From Nostoc linckia FACHB-104 (lineage in GTDB: Bacteria; Cyanobacteriota; Cyanobacteriia; Cyanobacteriales; Nostocaceae), in assembly GCF_014696615.1 (NCBI RefSeq), contig NZ_JACJQJ010000012.1, positions 1-64,000 on the forward strand: DNA of 64,000 nt, written 5' to 3'. The translations under genes were made by a program, and so were the position numbers. The notes below the pieces were generated by a model. It was not told the DNA's origin and did not search any database. It worked only from the letters and a program-made list of their open reading frames with translations. The stretch's first letter is position 1. Every line of letters begins with the position of its first letter. This document shows positions 33,967 through 39,862 of this stretch, one piece after another.

Positions 33967-35637
33967 TTATACCGCTTCACGAACTTTTTGTTTAATGGGG
34001 ATCTGAATCACGAACTCGGTTCCTTGACCGATGGTAGAAAAACACTTGAGCTTACCACCGTGTTTTTCCTTGATAATTTGATAACTGATAGACATCCCCA
34101 TACCTGTTCCTTTACCAACAGGCTTGGTTGTAAAGAATGGATCGAAGATGCGTTGTTGAATATGTTCGGCAATACCAACACCGTTGTCAGCGATCGCAAT
34201 TTCTATCCATCGAGCATCAATAGTTGATGTGCGAATCTTAATTTGGCTGGGTTGGGCTTGAATCTCCGCCGCTGTTCGCTTAGTATTATTTTCTTCTAGT
34301 GCATCAATGGCATTAGACAAAATATTCATAAAAACTTGATTGAGTTGCCCAGCATAACACTCGACCGGGGGCAAGCTGCTATAGTCCTTAATCACTTCAA
34401 TGGCGGGATAATTTGATTGGGCTTTGAGGCGATGTTGCAAAATCAGCAGCGTACTGTCGATGCCTTCATGAATATCCACAGTCTTAAAATCGGCTTCATC
34501 CATACGTGAGAAATTACGTAGCGACAACACAATCCGCCGAATGCGATCGGTTCCCAACTTCATAGAATCAACAAGCTTAATCAAATCTTGCTGTAAAAAG
34601 TCTAGGTCAATTTCATCCGCTTCCGCTTCAAGTTCTGGTGGAGCCTTGGGATAAAACTTTTGGTACAGCCGGATAAAGGCGAGAAGATTATGGGAATACT
34701 CATGCAGATGAGTTAGGTTACCGTGAATGAAATTGACTGGGTTATTAATTTCGTGAGCAACCCCAGCCACCAGTTCTCCCAAACTCGACATTTTTTCACT
34801 TTGTACTAATTGCATCTGAGCTTTTTGGAGATTATTTAGGGTCAGTTGCAACTCCTCGGTTTGTTTCTGTAAAAGAGTTTTGGCTTGCTGTAGTTCTGCA
34901 ATAGACTCTTCTTTCTCTAGGGCATCTGATTTCATTTTTTGGGCTAGTTTATGCCCATACAATGTAATGCTACCGACTATGAAAAACATAGCAACTGCGA
35001 TCGCCACCTCATAGTGTCGAAATACACTAGCGGCTATTTGTTGTTGTTGTAAGAGTTGTTGCTGAATCTGGCTCACATTCCAGCGAAATTTCGCCAGCGC
35101 CTTATTAACTTGGTGATATTTCCGATCCATCGTTGCCATGCGTTTGCCAGCCATTTCCGGCTGATTCTGGCGGAAATAAGAAAAAATTAGTTTTGCCTCC
35201 GCAACCATTTCTGCTGTTGCTGTTTGCACTGCATCTAAGTCTTTGAGCAAATGTGTAGACTGTGCTGGATCTACCTGCGTTTGTAGCTCTTGTCTAACTA
35301 AGTTAAACTTTTTCTCAAAGATATCCTGGGCAGATGCTAATCTCCTTGACTCTAGGTTGACATTGTGAGAATCGAAAACATCATTACCAGGAGCATTAAC
35401 CTCAGCTAAAAGTTGACCCAGCTCAGAATAGGTTTCCAGCCGCGTCGCCCACTCATGATTTACCTCAATGGACTGAGTATAAATGTCCATAATCTTGTGG
35501 TTGAGGTACAGACTGCTGGAGATAGTGAGTAAATCAAAGGCTGCTAAAGCATAATAAACATACTGCCACTTGGCGATTGATAACCATTTAACAAAAGTCG
35601 GAAACCTTGTTTGCAGAAATATTGCGAATCTTTGCAT
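33967..35637 (-). CDS. Membrane sensor histidine kinase
   Basis: The 556-residue protein has a membrane helix near residues 27-48, an extracytoplasmic helical sensor region (about 50-205) and a second membrane helix (about 210-230). A coiled coil rich in Gln and Leu follows, then the kinase core. The phospho-acceptor is His295 in GVAHEINNPVNF. The N box is QVFMNILSNAIDAL, and the ATP lid region is ADNGVGIAEHIQ with GKGTGMGMSIS. This is the cyanobacterial class of kinases with an elongated dimerisation region. No receiver domain is fused and no response regulator is adjacent, so its partner is unknown. Confidence 0.9.
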   Translation of the reverse strand: MQRFAIFLQTRFPTFVKWLSIAKWQYVYYALAAFDLLTISSSLYLNHKIMDIYTQSIEVNHEWATRLETYSELGQLLAEVNAPGNDVFDSHNVNLESRRLASAQDIFEKKFNLVRQELQTQVDPAQSTHLLKDLDAVQTATAEMVAEAKLIFSYFRQNQPEMAGKRMATMDRKYHQVNKALAKFRWNVSQIQQQLLQQQQIAASVFRHYEVAIAVAMFFIVGSITLYGHKLAQKMKSDALEKEESIAELQQAKTLLQKQTEELQLTLNNLQKAQMQLVQSEKMSSLGELVAGVAHEINNPVNFIHGNLTHLHEYSHNLLAFIRLYQKFYPKAPPELEAEADEIDLDFLQQDLIKLVDSMKLGTDRIRRIVLSLRNFSRMDEADFKTVDIHEGIDSTLLILQHRLKAQSNYPAIEVIKDYSSLPPVECYAGQLNQVFMNILSNAIDALEENNTKRTAAEIQAQPSQIKIRTSTIDARWIEIAIADNGVGIAEHIQQRIFDPFFTTKPVGKGTGMGMSISYQIIKEKHGGKLKCFSTIGQGTEFVIQIPIKQKVREAV

Positions 35638-35850
35638 GGAGATTGTGAGCGCACCTAGCTAGTGAAGAGTAGTCATCAGTAATTGCACATAATTACCGTC
35701 ATCAGGGTTGAAAGCCTTGATTTTGCTTATTTATATGCGTGCAATTATGCTTAAATACTGATAATGTAAGTCTTCCCCAACTAAACATGATATGAACATG
35801 AGTGCGATCGCCATTGTCATTTCATTATTTGTTCTTTGCAGTTAGTTAAA

Positions 35851-36032
35851 TTACTTCCCTGCTAATCTCTGCAATGCCAATAAACCAGCACCATACGCAG
35901 GCTCATGCTTGGGAAAAATCACTTTTACTTCCGGAAACTGCTGCATCATAGATGCGGTAAACTTCTCATGCATTTTGGATTTCCCTTGCCACACACTTCC
36001 GGTAGTCACCACTTCTAAAATTGAGCGATCGC
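35851..36032 (-). pseudogene. 3'-terminal fragment of a BadF/NagK-type kinase gene
   Basis: This piece encodes the last 60 or so residues of the sugar kinase found intact at 38891-39862 (ILEVVTTGSVWQGKSKMHEK and onward). Bases 35871-36032 match 38917-39078 at 159 of 162 positions. The final codons differ: this copy ends LQRLAGK and the intact gene ends LHKLGKSSL. Upstream the fragment stops at a small palindromic element and has no start of its own. It marks the far boundary of the inserted McrBC pair. Confidence 0.85.
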
Positions 36033-36038
36033 AAAGTG

Positions 36039-36138
36039 ATACCAATTCAAATAATGTCTGTGATACATCAATATATTCTAGAGGGCAAGGCAATGCCTTT
36101 CCCCTACAATTTGTCGCATTATTTTTTCAAATTGGTAT
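36039..36138. repeat. MITE-like element with ATACCAATT ends
   Basis: About 100 bp bounded by ATACCAATTCAAATAATG and its near complement (ATTATTTTTTCAAATTGGTAT, positions 36118-36138). It abuts the kinase gene fragment and lies just after the mcrC stop. Confidence 0.65.
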
Positions 36139-36208
36139 GAATTATTGAATCATTTAACTGTGTAATTTTTATAGTAGTTGTAATTTCGTATTCGAGCTTT
36201 ATAAGAAC

Positions 36209-37414
36209 TCACTTTACAAGCGTGGAGAATAATCTTTTTAAAAAAGTTTTACCCGCACGCTCCAGGTTATCATCTAAGGAAAAAGTAAGACTGCATACAT
36301 TAATATCATGACTTTGAATATTTAGTTCGTGTTTCAAATCTATTGGATATACTAAGAAAGCCTGGTTACAATTTGTTGTGTTAGCGTAGCTAATCATTTG
36401 ATGAATATCGCTATTTGTAGCTTTTTCCGGAGATTTATATTTAGTATCTAAAACTGCTAATGCTTTGCCAGTAGCAGCATCACAAAGTAAGATATCTAAA
36501 ATAAATCGCCGATTTTGTCCAACTTCTATTTGATGCTGCTGTTTAAAAATATAGCCTGGAGGTGCATTTTTCTTCAGCCATTCGGCAACAAAAAGTTCGT
36601 ATAAACGTGCCATATCAACGAGGAAAGGCAAAGTTTGATGATTTCTCATCTCATGACTTGGACTACTGTTATCTAAAAAAAATCGGCAGAGAATATGTAA
36701 TATTTGATAGTCTTCATTGAGGCGATTGTACTGTCTACCAATACAATCTTCTGCACGATAAAGTTTTGGTGTTACTAATCCTTGGAGAGCGTGATAAGAT
36801 TTTCTTATTGTTGGTGATACTCTGTCTGAACAAAAACCACTGTGACCAATAATATAAAGTGTCCAAGCAAGAATTTGGTTTTCTGCAATATCAGCAGTAT
36901 GTTCTTCGTAGTGGCATTTGAGTGTAACATCCCAAGGCTTTTGAATTAACTGTTGCATATTCAGCCGCCCTCTTACATAGGCAAGTTGCTCTGTTTTAGG
37001 CAAGTAAGTACGATATAATCCCTTACGACATCGTTCTATAATTTTCTGTGCTAGTAAATGAGCCAGATAATTATAAAAGTCTTGCAGAGATTCACAATTC
37101 ATCAGCCCATCAAGAAAACGAAAATTATTAAATTTATAGACATATTCCAGCATTCCCAAGAGGTTTTTGATAGGAACTTTGGGATTTATTTTTAAACCAA
37201 ATTCAGGATTTATAGGAATATAACCAACCCATCCTTTAGATTTTAGCCGCCACTGATTTCTTGTTTTGTAGCTAGGAAATTCTATCTCTATTTGCGTTTG
37301 ATAGTTATCATATAATTCTTGTCCTACTGAGTCTGGTATCTCTTGATGGGTAAATAGCTTATCTTGATATTCGGTTATTTCAATAATTTTTGGTAGTATT
37401 GAGTTTATCTCCAT
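36209..37414 (-). CDS. mcrC: McrC-like restriction system nuclease subunit
   Basis: The 401-residue protein matches the McrC family, the nuclease partner of McrB in modification-dependent restriction. The PD-(D/E)xK core is visible in the C-terminal half: an Asp in RRFILDILLCD (near residue 305) and the D-T-K triad in LAVLDTKYKSP (near 325). A conserved Gln helix (DIHQMISYA) follows. The N-terminal half has WVGYIPINPEFGLKINPKVP and AYVRGRLNMQQL, both typical. The start overlaps the end of the mcrB-like gene by 10 bases, so the two are translated together. Confidence 0.88.
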   Translation of the reverse strand: MEINSILPKIIEITEYQDKLFTHQEIPDSVGQELYDNYQTQIEIEFPSYKTRNQWRLKSKGWVGYIPINPEFGLKINPKVPIKNLLGMLEYVYKFNNFRFLDGLMNCESLQDFYNYLAHLLAQKIIERCRKGLYRTYLPKTEQLAYVRGRLNMQQLIQKPWDVTLKCHYEEHTADIAENQILAWTLYIIGHSGFCSDRVSPTIRKSYHALQGLVTPKLYRAEDCIGRQYNRLNEDYQILHILCRFFLDNSSPSHEMRNHQTLPFLVDMARLYELFVAEWLKKNAPPGYIFKQQHQIEVGQNRRFILDILLCDAATGKALAVLDTKYKSPEKATNSDIHQMISYANTTNCNQAFLVYPIDLKHELNIQSHDINVCSLTFSLDDNLERAGKTFLKRLFSTLVK

Positions 37415-38850
37415 AAATTTTGCTTTATATTATCCCAGCGAAAATTTTCTACCTTTTCTAGTTGGTTAAAGAAGTATTCTTCTAAATAAGGTTCAATTTC
37501 CATACACCAGATATCTTCAATATCCTCCCGTAGGTTATCTGTTAAAAAGAAGGAAATACCAATTTCGTAATTTTTATCGGCAATAGCTTGATTTAATTGC
37601 TGAATAACCTTAATTAATCCCTCTACTACAAGACCTGTTTTTTGGTGATAACGTTGCAATACATCATAATTTGGACGAAGTTCAATGAATGCAAATCTAC
37701 GACGTAATGCATGATCTATGAGGGCAATAGACCTATCTGCTGTATTCATTGTGCCAATAATGCGGACATTTGTTGGTATGCGAAAACTGTTTCCACCAGC
37801 TAAAGGAATTTCTTTATCACGATACTCTAGTAAGTACATCAATTCGCCAAAAACTTGAGCTAAATTTGCACGGTTTATCTCGTCTATTATCAAAACGCAA
37901 GTGTCTTGGCAAAACTCTGCTTTTTTGCAAAATTCTAAAAAGCGTCCGGGTACAAGCGGATATGTTAATTTTCCGTCTTCACTTTGGGGACGAATACCTT
38001 GAATAAAGTCTTCATAAGTGTAAGCTGGATGGAATTGTACAAGTTCTAAAAAACCATCACCACCACCTATTAGATGTTTGGCAAGATGTTCAGCAATGTA
38101 AGTTTTTCCGCTTCCAGGTGAACCATATAGCACTACTTGCTTTTTCCGATTAATTGCGCGTAACCAGCGTTCTAGATCTTTTACATTAATACCAGTTTCG
38201 TCTGAACATTGGTTCAAAATATAATTTGGATTTCGATGTAGCAAATATTGACGAATAGCAGGTTTAGGATCATCAGATACAGCAAGTAAGAATAAGGGAA
38301 GATACCATTGAGACCACTGTTTAAACTGGCCAATTAAAGCCTCATTTGCTGTCTTTAAAATGACATCTTTGCTATAAAACAGAAGATCTCTTTCCTCATC
38401 AACAAAGATATATGGCTCTTTAGCTACTATTTGTGCCATAACTATTGGATTTCTGTCAGCAATCTTTTCAGCTAGAAAAGAATAGGCATTTTCGCTAATA
38501 CCTATAGTTATACCTCTTTGCGTAATCTGTATGTATAGTAGTGAAAATAAATCCAGGTATTTTTGTAAGCCGAATTCACGGTTAGGATAGAATAAGTATT
38601 GAACCATTACTTTATCTAAAAAAGAGCTATCTAGTTCATAAAAACTTTTATTAGACACCTGTAAAGGTAATGTTTGATATATTAATTTGCAAAAATCAAT
38701 AAATGGTTTTTGTACACATAATAGAAAATTAAGATTCTCTTGTTGGTTAAAAAAATAATTTTCGTATTTTTGGTTGTTTATATTCCACTGTTCAAGTAGC
38801 TCAAAAGTATATGGTGAAAAAAGATTTTGGACTTTTTGCTGATCAGTCAT
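37405..38850 (-). CDS. mcrB: McrB-like AAA+ GTPase subunit
   Basis: The 481-residue protein has an N-terminal domain of about 230 residues that I do not recognise, which probably reads the target DNA. An McrB-type AAA+ motor follows: Walker A YGSPGSGKTYIAEHL (near 241-248), HPAYTYEDFIQGIRP, Walker B VLIIDEINRANLAQVFGEL, and the McrB signature GTMNTADRSIALID (near 368). Arg finger HALRRRF is present. McrB translocates DNA with GTP and activates McrC. The methylation pattern recognised cannot be predicted. It lies 40 bases downstream of the kinase gene on the same strand. Confidence 0.88.
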   Translation of the reverse strand: MTDQQKVQNLFSPYTFELLEQWNINNQKYENYFFNQQENLNFLLCVQKPFIDFCKLIYQTLPLQVSNKSFYELDSSFLDKVMVQYLFYPNREFGLQKYLDLFSLLYIQITQRGITIGISENAYSFLAEKIADRNPIVMAQIVAKEPYIFVDEERDLLFYSKDVILKTANEALIGQFKQWSQWYLPLFLLAVSDDPKPAIRQYLLHRNPNYILNQCSDETGINVKDLERWLRAINRKKQVVLYGSPGSGKTYIAEHLAKHLIGGGDGFLELVQFHPAYTYEDFIQGIRPQSEDGKLTYPLVPGRFLEFCKKAEFCQDTCVLIIDEINRANLAQVFGELMYLLEYRDKEIPLAGGNSFRIPTNVRIIGTMNTADRSIALIDHALRRRFAFIELRPNYDVLQRYHQKTGLVVEGLIKVIQQLNQAIADKNYEIGISFFLTDNLREDIEDIWCMEIEPYLEEYFFNQLEKVENFRWDNIKQNLWR

Positions 38851-38890
38851 TGCTTAAAATATAGAGTAATATCTGTTTCAGTTATCTTCT

Positions 38891-39862
38891 TTATAAACTA
38901 CTTTTACCTAACTTATGCAATGCCAATAAACCAGCACCATACGCAGGCTCATGCTTGGGAAAAATCACTTTTACTTCCGGAAACTGCTGTATCATAGATG
39001 CGGTAAACTTCTCATGCATTTTGGATTTACCTTGCCACACACTTCCGGTAGTCACCACTTCTAAAATTGGGCGATCGCTAAAAATTTGCTCAATTACTGT
39101 CGCAGTAGCTTTGACAAAATATTGCACCGCATCATCAATAATCTGATTTGCCACTTTATCGCCTAAAGCTGCAGCTAAATCTACAATTTCTGCTAAAGCT
39201 GCTATTTCTGCAACTCCCCATCCCCGCCGATAAATTAATTCTACTAAAGCTTCTAAATTAGGCAATTCTAAATACGCTTTAAAAATATCTACCAAACTCG
39301 TTGGTATTCCAGTACCATCATAAGCTTTTAATGCTGCCTGTACACCTGCGATCGCAATTTTATAAGCGCTACCTTCATCACCTAAAATATAGCCCCAGCC
39401 ACCGACGCGCTTGGTAAATCCCTGATGATTACGTCCAAAAACTATCGAACCTGTACCTGCGGCTGCAACAATTCCCACATGATTACCAATTCCCCCTACT
39501 AACGCAATTAAAGCATCATGACAAATCACAATCTTTGATGCAGGTAATGCCCAGTTAATTGGCAGTAATTCACTATTTTGTAATACTTGTACTAAACTTC
39601 TTACTATTTCAATATCCTCTGCACGTCCTACACCTGCTAAACCTAAACAAATCGCCGTAATTTTAATTGGCTTAGTAATATTTACTGCTTGATCTGTCGC
39701 CGCCATAATTGCAAATTCAATTGATTGTCGCGCCGCATCTACACCTATACTTTGATAATTAGATGCGCCAGCTTTTCCACGACTGATAACTTGGCGCGTT
39801 TCGTCCATTAATACGCAAACAGTCTTACTACCGCCGCCATCAATCCCTAAAACATAATTCAT
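38891..39862 (-). CDS. BadF/BadG/BcrA/BcrD-family sugar kinase (NagK/MurK-like)
   Basis: The 323-residue protein has the ASKHA ATPase fold. Phosphate loop 1 is LGIDGGGSKTVCVLMDE, SNYQSIG follows, then LGLAGVGR, phosphate loop 2 GIVAAAGTGSIVFGRN and the adjacent RVGGWGYILGDEGSAYKIA. This is the N-acetylglucosamine/muramic acid kinase branch of the family. With the AmpG-like transporter next upstream it could phosphorylate imported murein amino sugars; that is inferred. Its last 162 bases before the tail are duplicated at 35871-36032, and its C-terminus (LHKLGKSSL) may have been supplied by the inserted cassette. Confidence 0.85.
   Translation of the reverse strand: MNYVLGIDGGGSKTVCVLMDETRQVISRGKAGASNYQSIGVDAARQSIEFAIMAATDQAVNITKPIKITAICLGLAGVGRAEDIEIVRSLVQVLQNSELLPINWALPASKIVICHDALIALVGGIGNHVGIVAAAGTGSIVFGRNHQGFTKRVGGWGYILGDEGSAYKIAIAGVQAALKAYDGTGIPTSLVDIFKAYLELPNLEALVELIYRRGWGVAEIAALAEIVDLAAALGDKVANQIIDDAVQYFVKATATVIEQIFSDRPILEVVTTGSVWQGKSKMHEKFTASMIQQFPEVKVIFPKHEPAYGAGLLALHKLGKSSL

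Follow-up and report, generated by a model that had tools for sequence, protein, structure and literature searches.

An apparently integrase-free defence slot behind a BadF/BcrAD-family kinase gene of Nostocaceae carries McrBC with an exchanged recognition module

Results

The window analysed here comprises 64,000 nucleotides from Nostoc linckia FACHB-104 (contig NZ_JACJQJ010000012.1, positions 1 to 64,000), in which an McrBC gene pair lies between an intact kinase gene and a second copy of that gene's 3' end; all genes named below for the window are on the minus strand. The kinase gene (38891–39862), the left flank of the locus, is a complete open reading frame of 323 amino acids that matches PF01869 (BcrAD_BadFG, 1.6e-40) and falls far below the cut-off of the NCBIfam N-acetylglucosamine kinase model (102 against 370 bits): judged by these matches it is a kinase of the BadF/BcrAD family, N-acetylglucosamine being no more than a possible substrate. 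Upstream of it there is a 22-nt inverted repeat (39926–39947/40043–40064) with arms that are 86% complementary and 95 nt apart. The original prediction had described a direct repeat with the intact kinase on one side and only its tail on the other, which alignment confirmed: the copy within the kinase (38917–39078, minus strand) and the copy behind McrC (35871–36032) are identical at 159 of 162 positions (spacing 3046; mismatches at 35944, 35983 and 36024), and the ungapped match reaches 35862–36035 and 38908–39081 (174 nt, 96%), far beyond chance. The displaced tail (35851–36032, minus strand) stays in the kinase frame up to its stop at 35851, and after the repeat the two reading frames end as had been claimed, the kinase in LHKLGKSSL and the tail in LQRLAGK. 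Copies of the HIP1 octamer GCGATCGC bound the repeat on its outer side in the kinase (39071–39078) and open the displaced tail (36025–36032), and the right neighbour of the locus is a histidine kinase gene (33967–35637). An assembly artefact is unlikely, since the independently sequenced genome of Nostoc carneum NIES-2107 (G007; 8.35-Mb contig) has the same arrangement.

Both genes between the repeat copies match the solved McrBC of E. coli in a PDB search. The GTPase half of McrB (37405–38199; AAA_5; PDB 6hz4, 6.4e-46) exhibits the Walker A motif GSPGSGKT and an NxxD signature (NTAD), whilst its partner McrC (36209–37414) belongs to the McrBC nuclease-subunit family (PF10117, 7.2e-45 over 57–357; PDB 6hz4 chain M, 4.3e-8). 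The N-terminal module of McrB (residues 1–217; 38200–38850), delimited as the exchanged part by the identity profile and module types discussed below and bordered on the left by the kinase end, matched no Pfam family at E 0.001, including the ADAM/DUF3578 domain of the K-12 type, which is not required of every McrB; a PDB search using the N-module profile also gave no match, and the AlphaFold model of McrB was poor (mean pLDDT 53, four sequences). According to the accessible text of the McrBC census (PMC11090510), the CoCoNuT branch is marked by an NxD motif replacing NxxD; NTAD is NxxD. Read from its sequence, the pair would be an ordinary McrBC at an unusual address. A literature search that combined McrBC, cyanobacteria, Nostoc and defence found no paper. 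At least two matches to C5-cytosine methyltransferases (PF00145) are present in all eight genomes of our genus sample, and an m5C enzyme for CGATCG is reported from Anabaena PCC 7120 in the available part of PMC4390886. If HIP1 were methylated as m5C, a K-12-like McrBC specificity could harm its hosts, and the lack of an ADAM match would fit this. One inspected stretch of 4.1 kb encodes a C5-cytosine methyltransferase (L147:1351–2676) and no second large nuclease-type gene.

This genus sample of eight genomes includes the window's own (G000). McrBC lies behind the kinase in five of them (G000, G007, G002, G001 and G004), whereas searches of G003 (Calothrix membranacea FACHB-236), G005 and G006 gave no match to McrC. 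The uninterrupted kinase that had been proposed as a check exists in G003 and G005: the kinase ends in LQ[RK]LAGK (LQRLAGK or LQKLAGK), and directly behind it come the sequence that the window has at 35850 and then the histidine kinase gene. When the window's flanks were joined by script, the product aligned without a break over its whole 1216 bp to G003 (91%) and G005 (89%), while the unjoined locus matched both genomes in two pieces overlapping in the repeat; because the match of the joined flanks is unbroken, the tail at 35851–36032 represents the original kinase end. In G007 the order of kinase, McrBC and tail is that of the window, as are the spacer behind McrC and the start of the tail at the same TTTGCGATCGC. 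G001 and G004 carry McrBC at this position with no tail copy. Neither of the outcomes that would have spoken against the original prediction was found, namely the same arrangement in all relatives with diverged repeats or a tail fragment existing independently of McrBC: among 83 regions behind the kinase (see below) a long tail copy occurs only in G000 and G007, and none is present in the three genus genomes without McrBC (G003, G005, G006).

The sequence between McrC and the displaced tail includes a spacer (36138–36208, minus strand), which alignment shows to be common to G007 and G002, and a 98-bp MITE (36040–36137) with TACCAATT-type ends, flanked by TGA repeats (36037–36039 and 36138–36140). 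A search of the genome with 35800–36150 gave at least 41 matches: one is the query, one the kinase copy, and the other 39 are MITE matches at other places, this last count being a lower bound as 40 of 212 candidates were scored. The MITE can be ruled out as the cause of the duplication, since G007 has the identical junction without it. In G002 the MITE is found at the same place, and the tail-opening HIP1 octamer runs straight into the sequence past the next HIP1 downstream (35804–35811 in the window), the sequence between both octamers being missing; this is the arrangement that a deletion between two HIP1 octamers would leave. The McrBC copy of G002 has an in-frame stop in the N-terminal part of McrB and one TAG in McrC (L041) and is for this reason probably decaying; its histidine kinase is present as a fragment only. 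There are 61 HIP1 octamers in the window, and positions within 3 nt of an octamer edge make up 1.3% of it.

The two copies of the repeat differ at 3 of 162 positions in the window and at 13 of 162 in G007. When all four copies are compared, seven sites pair the copies by genome, none by position and two are crossed, and three changes are private to both window copies relative to the genus copies compared. This pattern indicates that the window's two tails have been homogenised in their own genome, which entails recombination between the repeats; it is also due to this homogenisation that the copies look young. A crossover between the tails would remove McrBC and leave the arrangement seen in G003 and G005.

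Comparison of 19 McrB proteins revealed that their GTPase halves are 66–93% identical, whereas their N-terminal parts sort into three types that do not match one another at E 1e-3 (of 20 McrB, G190, missed by the Walker pattern used, was outside this comparison and was typed on the McrC tree). On the McrC tree, which contains 31 rows of which 29 are typed (G034 from a 60-residue match only; G099 and G011b bear no label), the N-types need nine changes, the minimum possible being two; shuffled types need 13.6 changes on average and as few as nine in 1 of 200 shuffles. The types are thus clustered on the McrC tree but not simply vertical, and because of this clustering the module pattern is vertical in part. 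In genus pairs with different modules, DNA identity drops where the kinase ends and is regained ahead of Walker A. G001 and G002 share their module: here the kinases are 76–90% identical per 100-nt bin, and identity rises to 93–96% at the kinase end and stays there across the noncoding spacer; the switch occurs within the final codons of the kinase. The N-module of the window is closest to that of G108, a member of another genus (61%; 11 of 388 genomes of the order gave a match), and only 27% identical to that of G007. As the window and G007 share the junction yet differ in N-module, several events overlap at this locus. In all seven type-3 loci, and in none of the 12 others, genes for PDC-M11A and PDC-M11B (PADLOC labels only) lie between kinase and McrB, with PDC-M11A being short in G131; at L072:6108–8703, PDC-M11A has a GNAT-like N-terminus and PDC-M11B an ASCH domain, just upstream of a type-3 McrB. 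Together with McrB and McrC they possibly form one four-gene system, and a literature search on the PADLOC candidate names found no paper with PDC-M11. The N-module would decide which modified DNA McrBC cuts.

We searched 217 Nostocaceae genomes at E 1e-20 and obtained kinase matches in 143 and McrC matches in 55. Of 59 McrC matches, 26 are located on the kinase's strand, 1.5–10.3 kb behind it. A further 20 McrC-centred stretches were fetched, of which G011 was already among the 26, leaving 19 (and 14 matches uninspected): five adjoin the FGGY kinase found downstream of the slot (G174, G180, G034, G086 and G027), their BadF/BcrAD-family kinase being absent or on another contig, and 14 do not adjoin that FGGY kinase. 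Trees of kinase and McrC from 23 loci both contain the genus groups g1, g6 and g39 and differ in the order inside g6 and in the placing of the groups. Mojavia still has roughly 36 bp of the McrC end together with the spacer behind it, and since these remain it lost McrBC by deletion. McrBC at this slot is thus a long-standing resident and not a fresh arrival. A plasmid home for the cassette was rejected: of 72,556 plasmid records only 9 matched at all, each over less than 80% of the query. The best of these matches are diverged McrBC genes (64–72%), which come from Calothrix PCC 6303, Leptolyngbya and Nostoc CENA543; one of the nine is a MITE copy.

The suspicion that this might be a reusable insertion site is borne out at the level of the family. 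We compared 83 regions between the kinase and the FGGY kinase, chosen among the kinase matches and not at random (about 82 distinct loci: L064 and L086, both 317442 in length, probably come from one contig, and G011 gave two regions). The slot contains McrBC, PDC-M11A/B with McrBC, other genes or nothing. In G039, G182, G175 and G165 it encodes a PDC-M26A-like protein together with one of the DUF2357/PDDEXK_7 kind (families determined on G175 and in part on G182, and assigned by clustering for G039 and G165); at L107:2631–6318, as well as in L052, L095 and L116, a TPR-AAA_5 protein (PDC-M26A) and a DUF2357/PDDEXK_7 protein form an alternative, McrBC-like cassette. The slot of G132 encodes a 1281-aa protein with sub-threshold NACHT similarity. 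In L044 and L092 the slot is followed by a gene (c11) that reads as aminoacyl-tRNA synthetase-like, with remnants in L127 and L128. G006 and a Tolypothrix locus (L066) are devoid of both McrBC and a tail copy. In group g6 a dienelactone-hydrolase-family gene lies directly behind the kinase on the opposite strand (L067:8241–8981), and the g6 kinase mostly ends in LQTTQN, not in an LQRL-type sequence. When each kinase tail was compared with its own downstream DNA, besides the long copies in G000 and G007, copies of 79–80 bp were found in G175 and G165, and matches of 20–23 bp in 3 of the 83 regions (G183, G130 and G170). The flank of the tail copy in G175 and G165 matches the stretch between kinase and M26A gene of G039 (277 alignment columns, 73–74%), and G182 has a shorter relic of the same flank; in these two genomes the displaced kinase tail would have arrived with another cassette, in another genus. 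Their kinase homology begins slightly after HIP1 and not at HIP1. Thus, different cargo occupies one address between conserved genes, and recombination is visible in a flanking gene (the switch between G001 and G002; the homogenised tails of G000), for a single gene pair.

Discussion

The slot is real and reusable, is apparently free of an integrase and exhibits exchange of the recognition module. We consider it probable that the region behind the kinase is a long-standing defence slot of Nostocaceae that is maintained by recombination in its flanks and not by an integrase, that its recognition module is exchanged and that the repeat in the window is the footprint of a joining of two alleles. 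The GTPase half of McrB and McrC would stay at the address, following the genus groups of the kinase, while the recognition half and the accessory genes between kinase and McrB would be replaced by crossovers with their left end at the kinase 3' end and their right end just before the Walker A motif of McrB; whole cassettes would also be lost and later regained. In the window, an allele composed of kinase, McrBC and spacer may have been joined, at the HIP1 octamer within the kinase tail, to an empty allele composed of kinase tail and histidine kinase gene, with the kinase keeping a complete end and the tail of the other allele being left behind McrC. The direction could be either way, McrBC entering an empty allele or a fragment of the empty allele entering an occupied one, and the MITE would have landed near the junction in a later step. 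As the occupied parent allele was not found, there being no occupied allele without the tail in the G000/G007 clade, we infer the joining step, and likewise the route by which the DNA entered and the removal of McrBC by recombination between the tails.

HIP1 may have promoted the joining: in the available part of PMC4390886 there is some evidence for site-specific or illegitimate recombination at HIP1 and none for homologous recombination. A bolder version, in which the kinase 3' end and HIP1 act as a de facto attachment site, and in which joins from HIP1 to HIP1 together with homologous recombination of tails repeatedly move cassettes and modules between genera without an integrase, resulting in a type IV enzyme at a fixed address with exchangeable specificity, is tentative and in our judgement rather improbable.

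Slightly less credible still is a purely vertical history: here McrBC would be ancestral, a single duplication of the tail would have arisen by slippage or unequal exchange, and recombination between the tails would have removed McrBC from G003 and G005. That McrC follows the genus groups, that Mojavia represents a loss with the McrC end and spacer kept, and that the homogenised tails support recombination between them are all in accordance with such a history; however, it leaves the exchange of N-modules, the switch between G001 and G002 at the kinase end and the other cassettes unexplained, and G006 and the Tolypothrix locus are also without McrBC and have no tail copy. We regard as very unlikely that an integrase, later lost, inserted an McrBC island at the kinase 3' end with the 162-bp repeat as att sites. 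The displaced gene end and the matching clean empty site that characterise a gene-end island are present, with an intact gene on one side and a displaced tail on the other, and to this extent the original idea of 3'-end integration with restoration of the target is supported; the discrete integrated element is not, as McrBC is an old resident of the slot, the left and right ends vary between genomes and McrBC occupies the slot with no tail copy in G001 and G004. Furthermore, the open reading frames between the copies are McrB, McrC and frames of 78–80 amino acids, with no integrase visible among them, as had been noted at the outset. A repeat of 162 bp is also long for an att core. The other origin that had been suggested, recombination of tandem kinase paralogues trapping a defence pair, can be practically dismissed in spite of the partial second kinase copy, as the genome gave one full kinase plus a tail, no second long kinase match was found in the eight genus genomes and the tail corresponds to the end that this very gene has at the empty sites.

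Returning to the flank-recombination history that we favour, filamentous cyanobacteria look as if they keep, lose and re-equip anti-phage genes at this slot, with the recognition half swapped whilst the cutting machinery stays. Nature provides here a series of alleles (empty, occupied, rejoined and deleted) from which gain, loss and re-targeting of defence can be read stepwise. Two questions thereby become testable: one is whether changes in McrB specificity arise chiefly through exchange of modules while the gene keeps its address, the other whether HIP1, an octamer that is very abundant and so far without explanation, has a part in rearranging genomes.

With McrBC type IV restriction, as known from E. 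coli K-12 and from the accessible part of the census (PMC11090510), the slot shares a McrB GTPase with NxxD followed by McrC and modular N-terminal specificity domains; it differs in that the N-module has no ADAM/DUF3578 match and in that three unrelated module types are found at one chromosomal address. As in the exchange of target recognition domains in restriction-modification genes (PMC3077401, available part), the recognition part changes and the rest stays, although the enzyme here is of type IV with no methyltransferase partner and the left crossover lies in a neighbouring housekeeping-type gene. The HIP1-associated recombination in reports cited in the available text of PMC4390886 has in common with the slot the joins at GCGATCGC, namely the tail start in G000 and G007 and the stretch absent from G002; plasmids and cloned sequences are the subject of those reports, whereas the joins at the slot come from natural genomes and a defence locus, with the part of HIP1 conjectural. 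The slot also resembles in organisation the hotspots without mobile elements described in 2017 (PMC5635113, as far as its accessible text extends), which also combine changing cargo and recombination in flanking genes with no visible integrase. In contrast to these, the catalytic core of the slot (GTPase half of McrB and McrC) persists at its address across genera under a changing recognition module, and the joins have left their record in displaced tails of the flanking gene.
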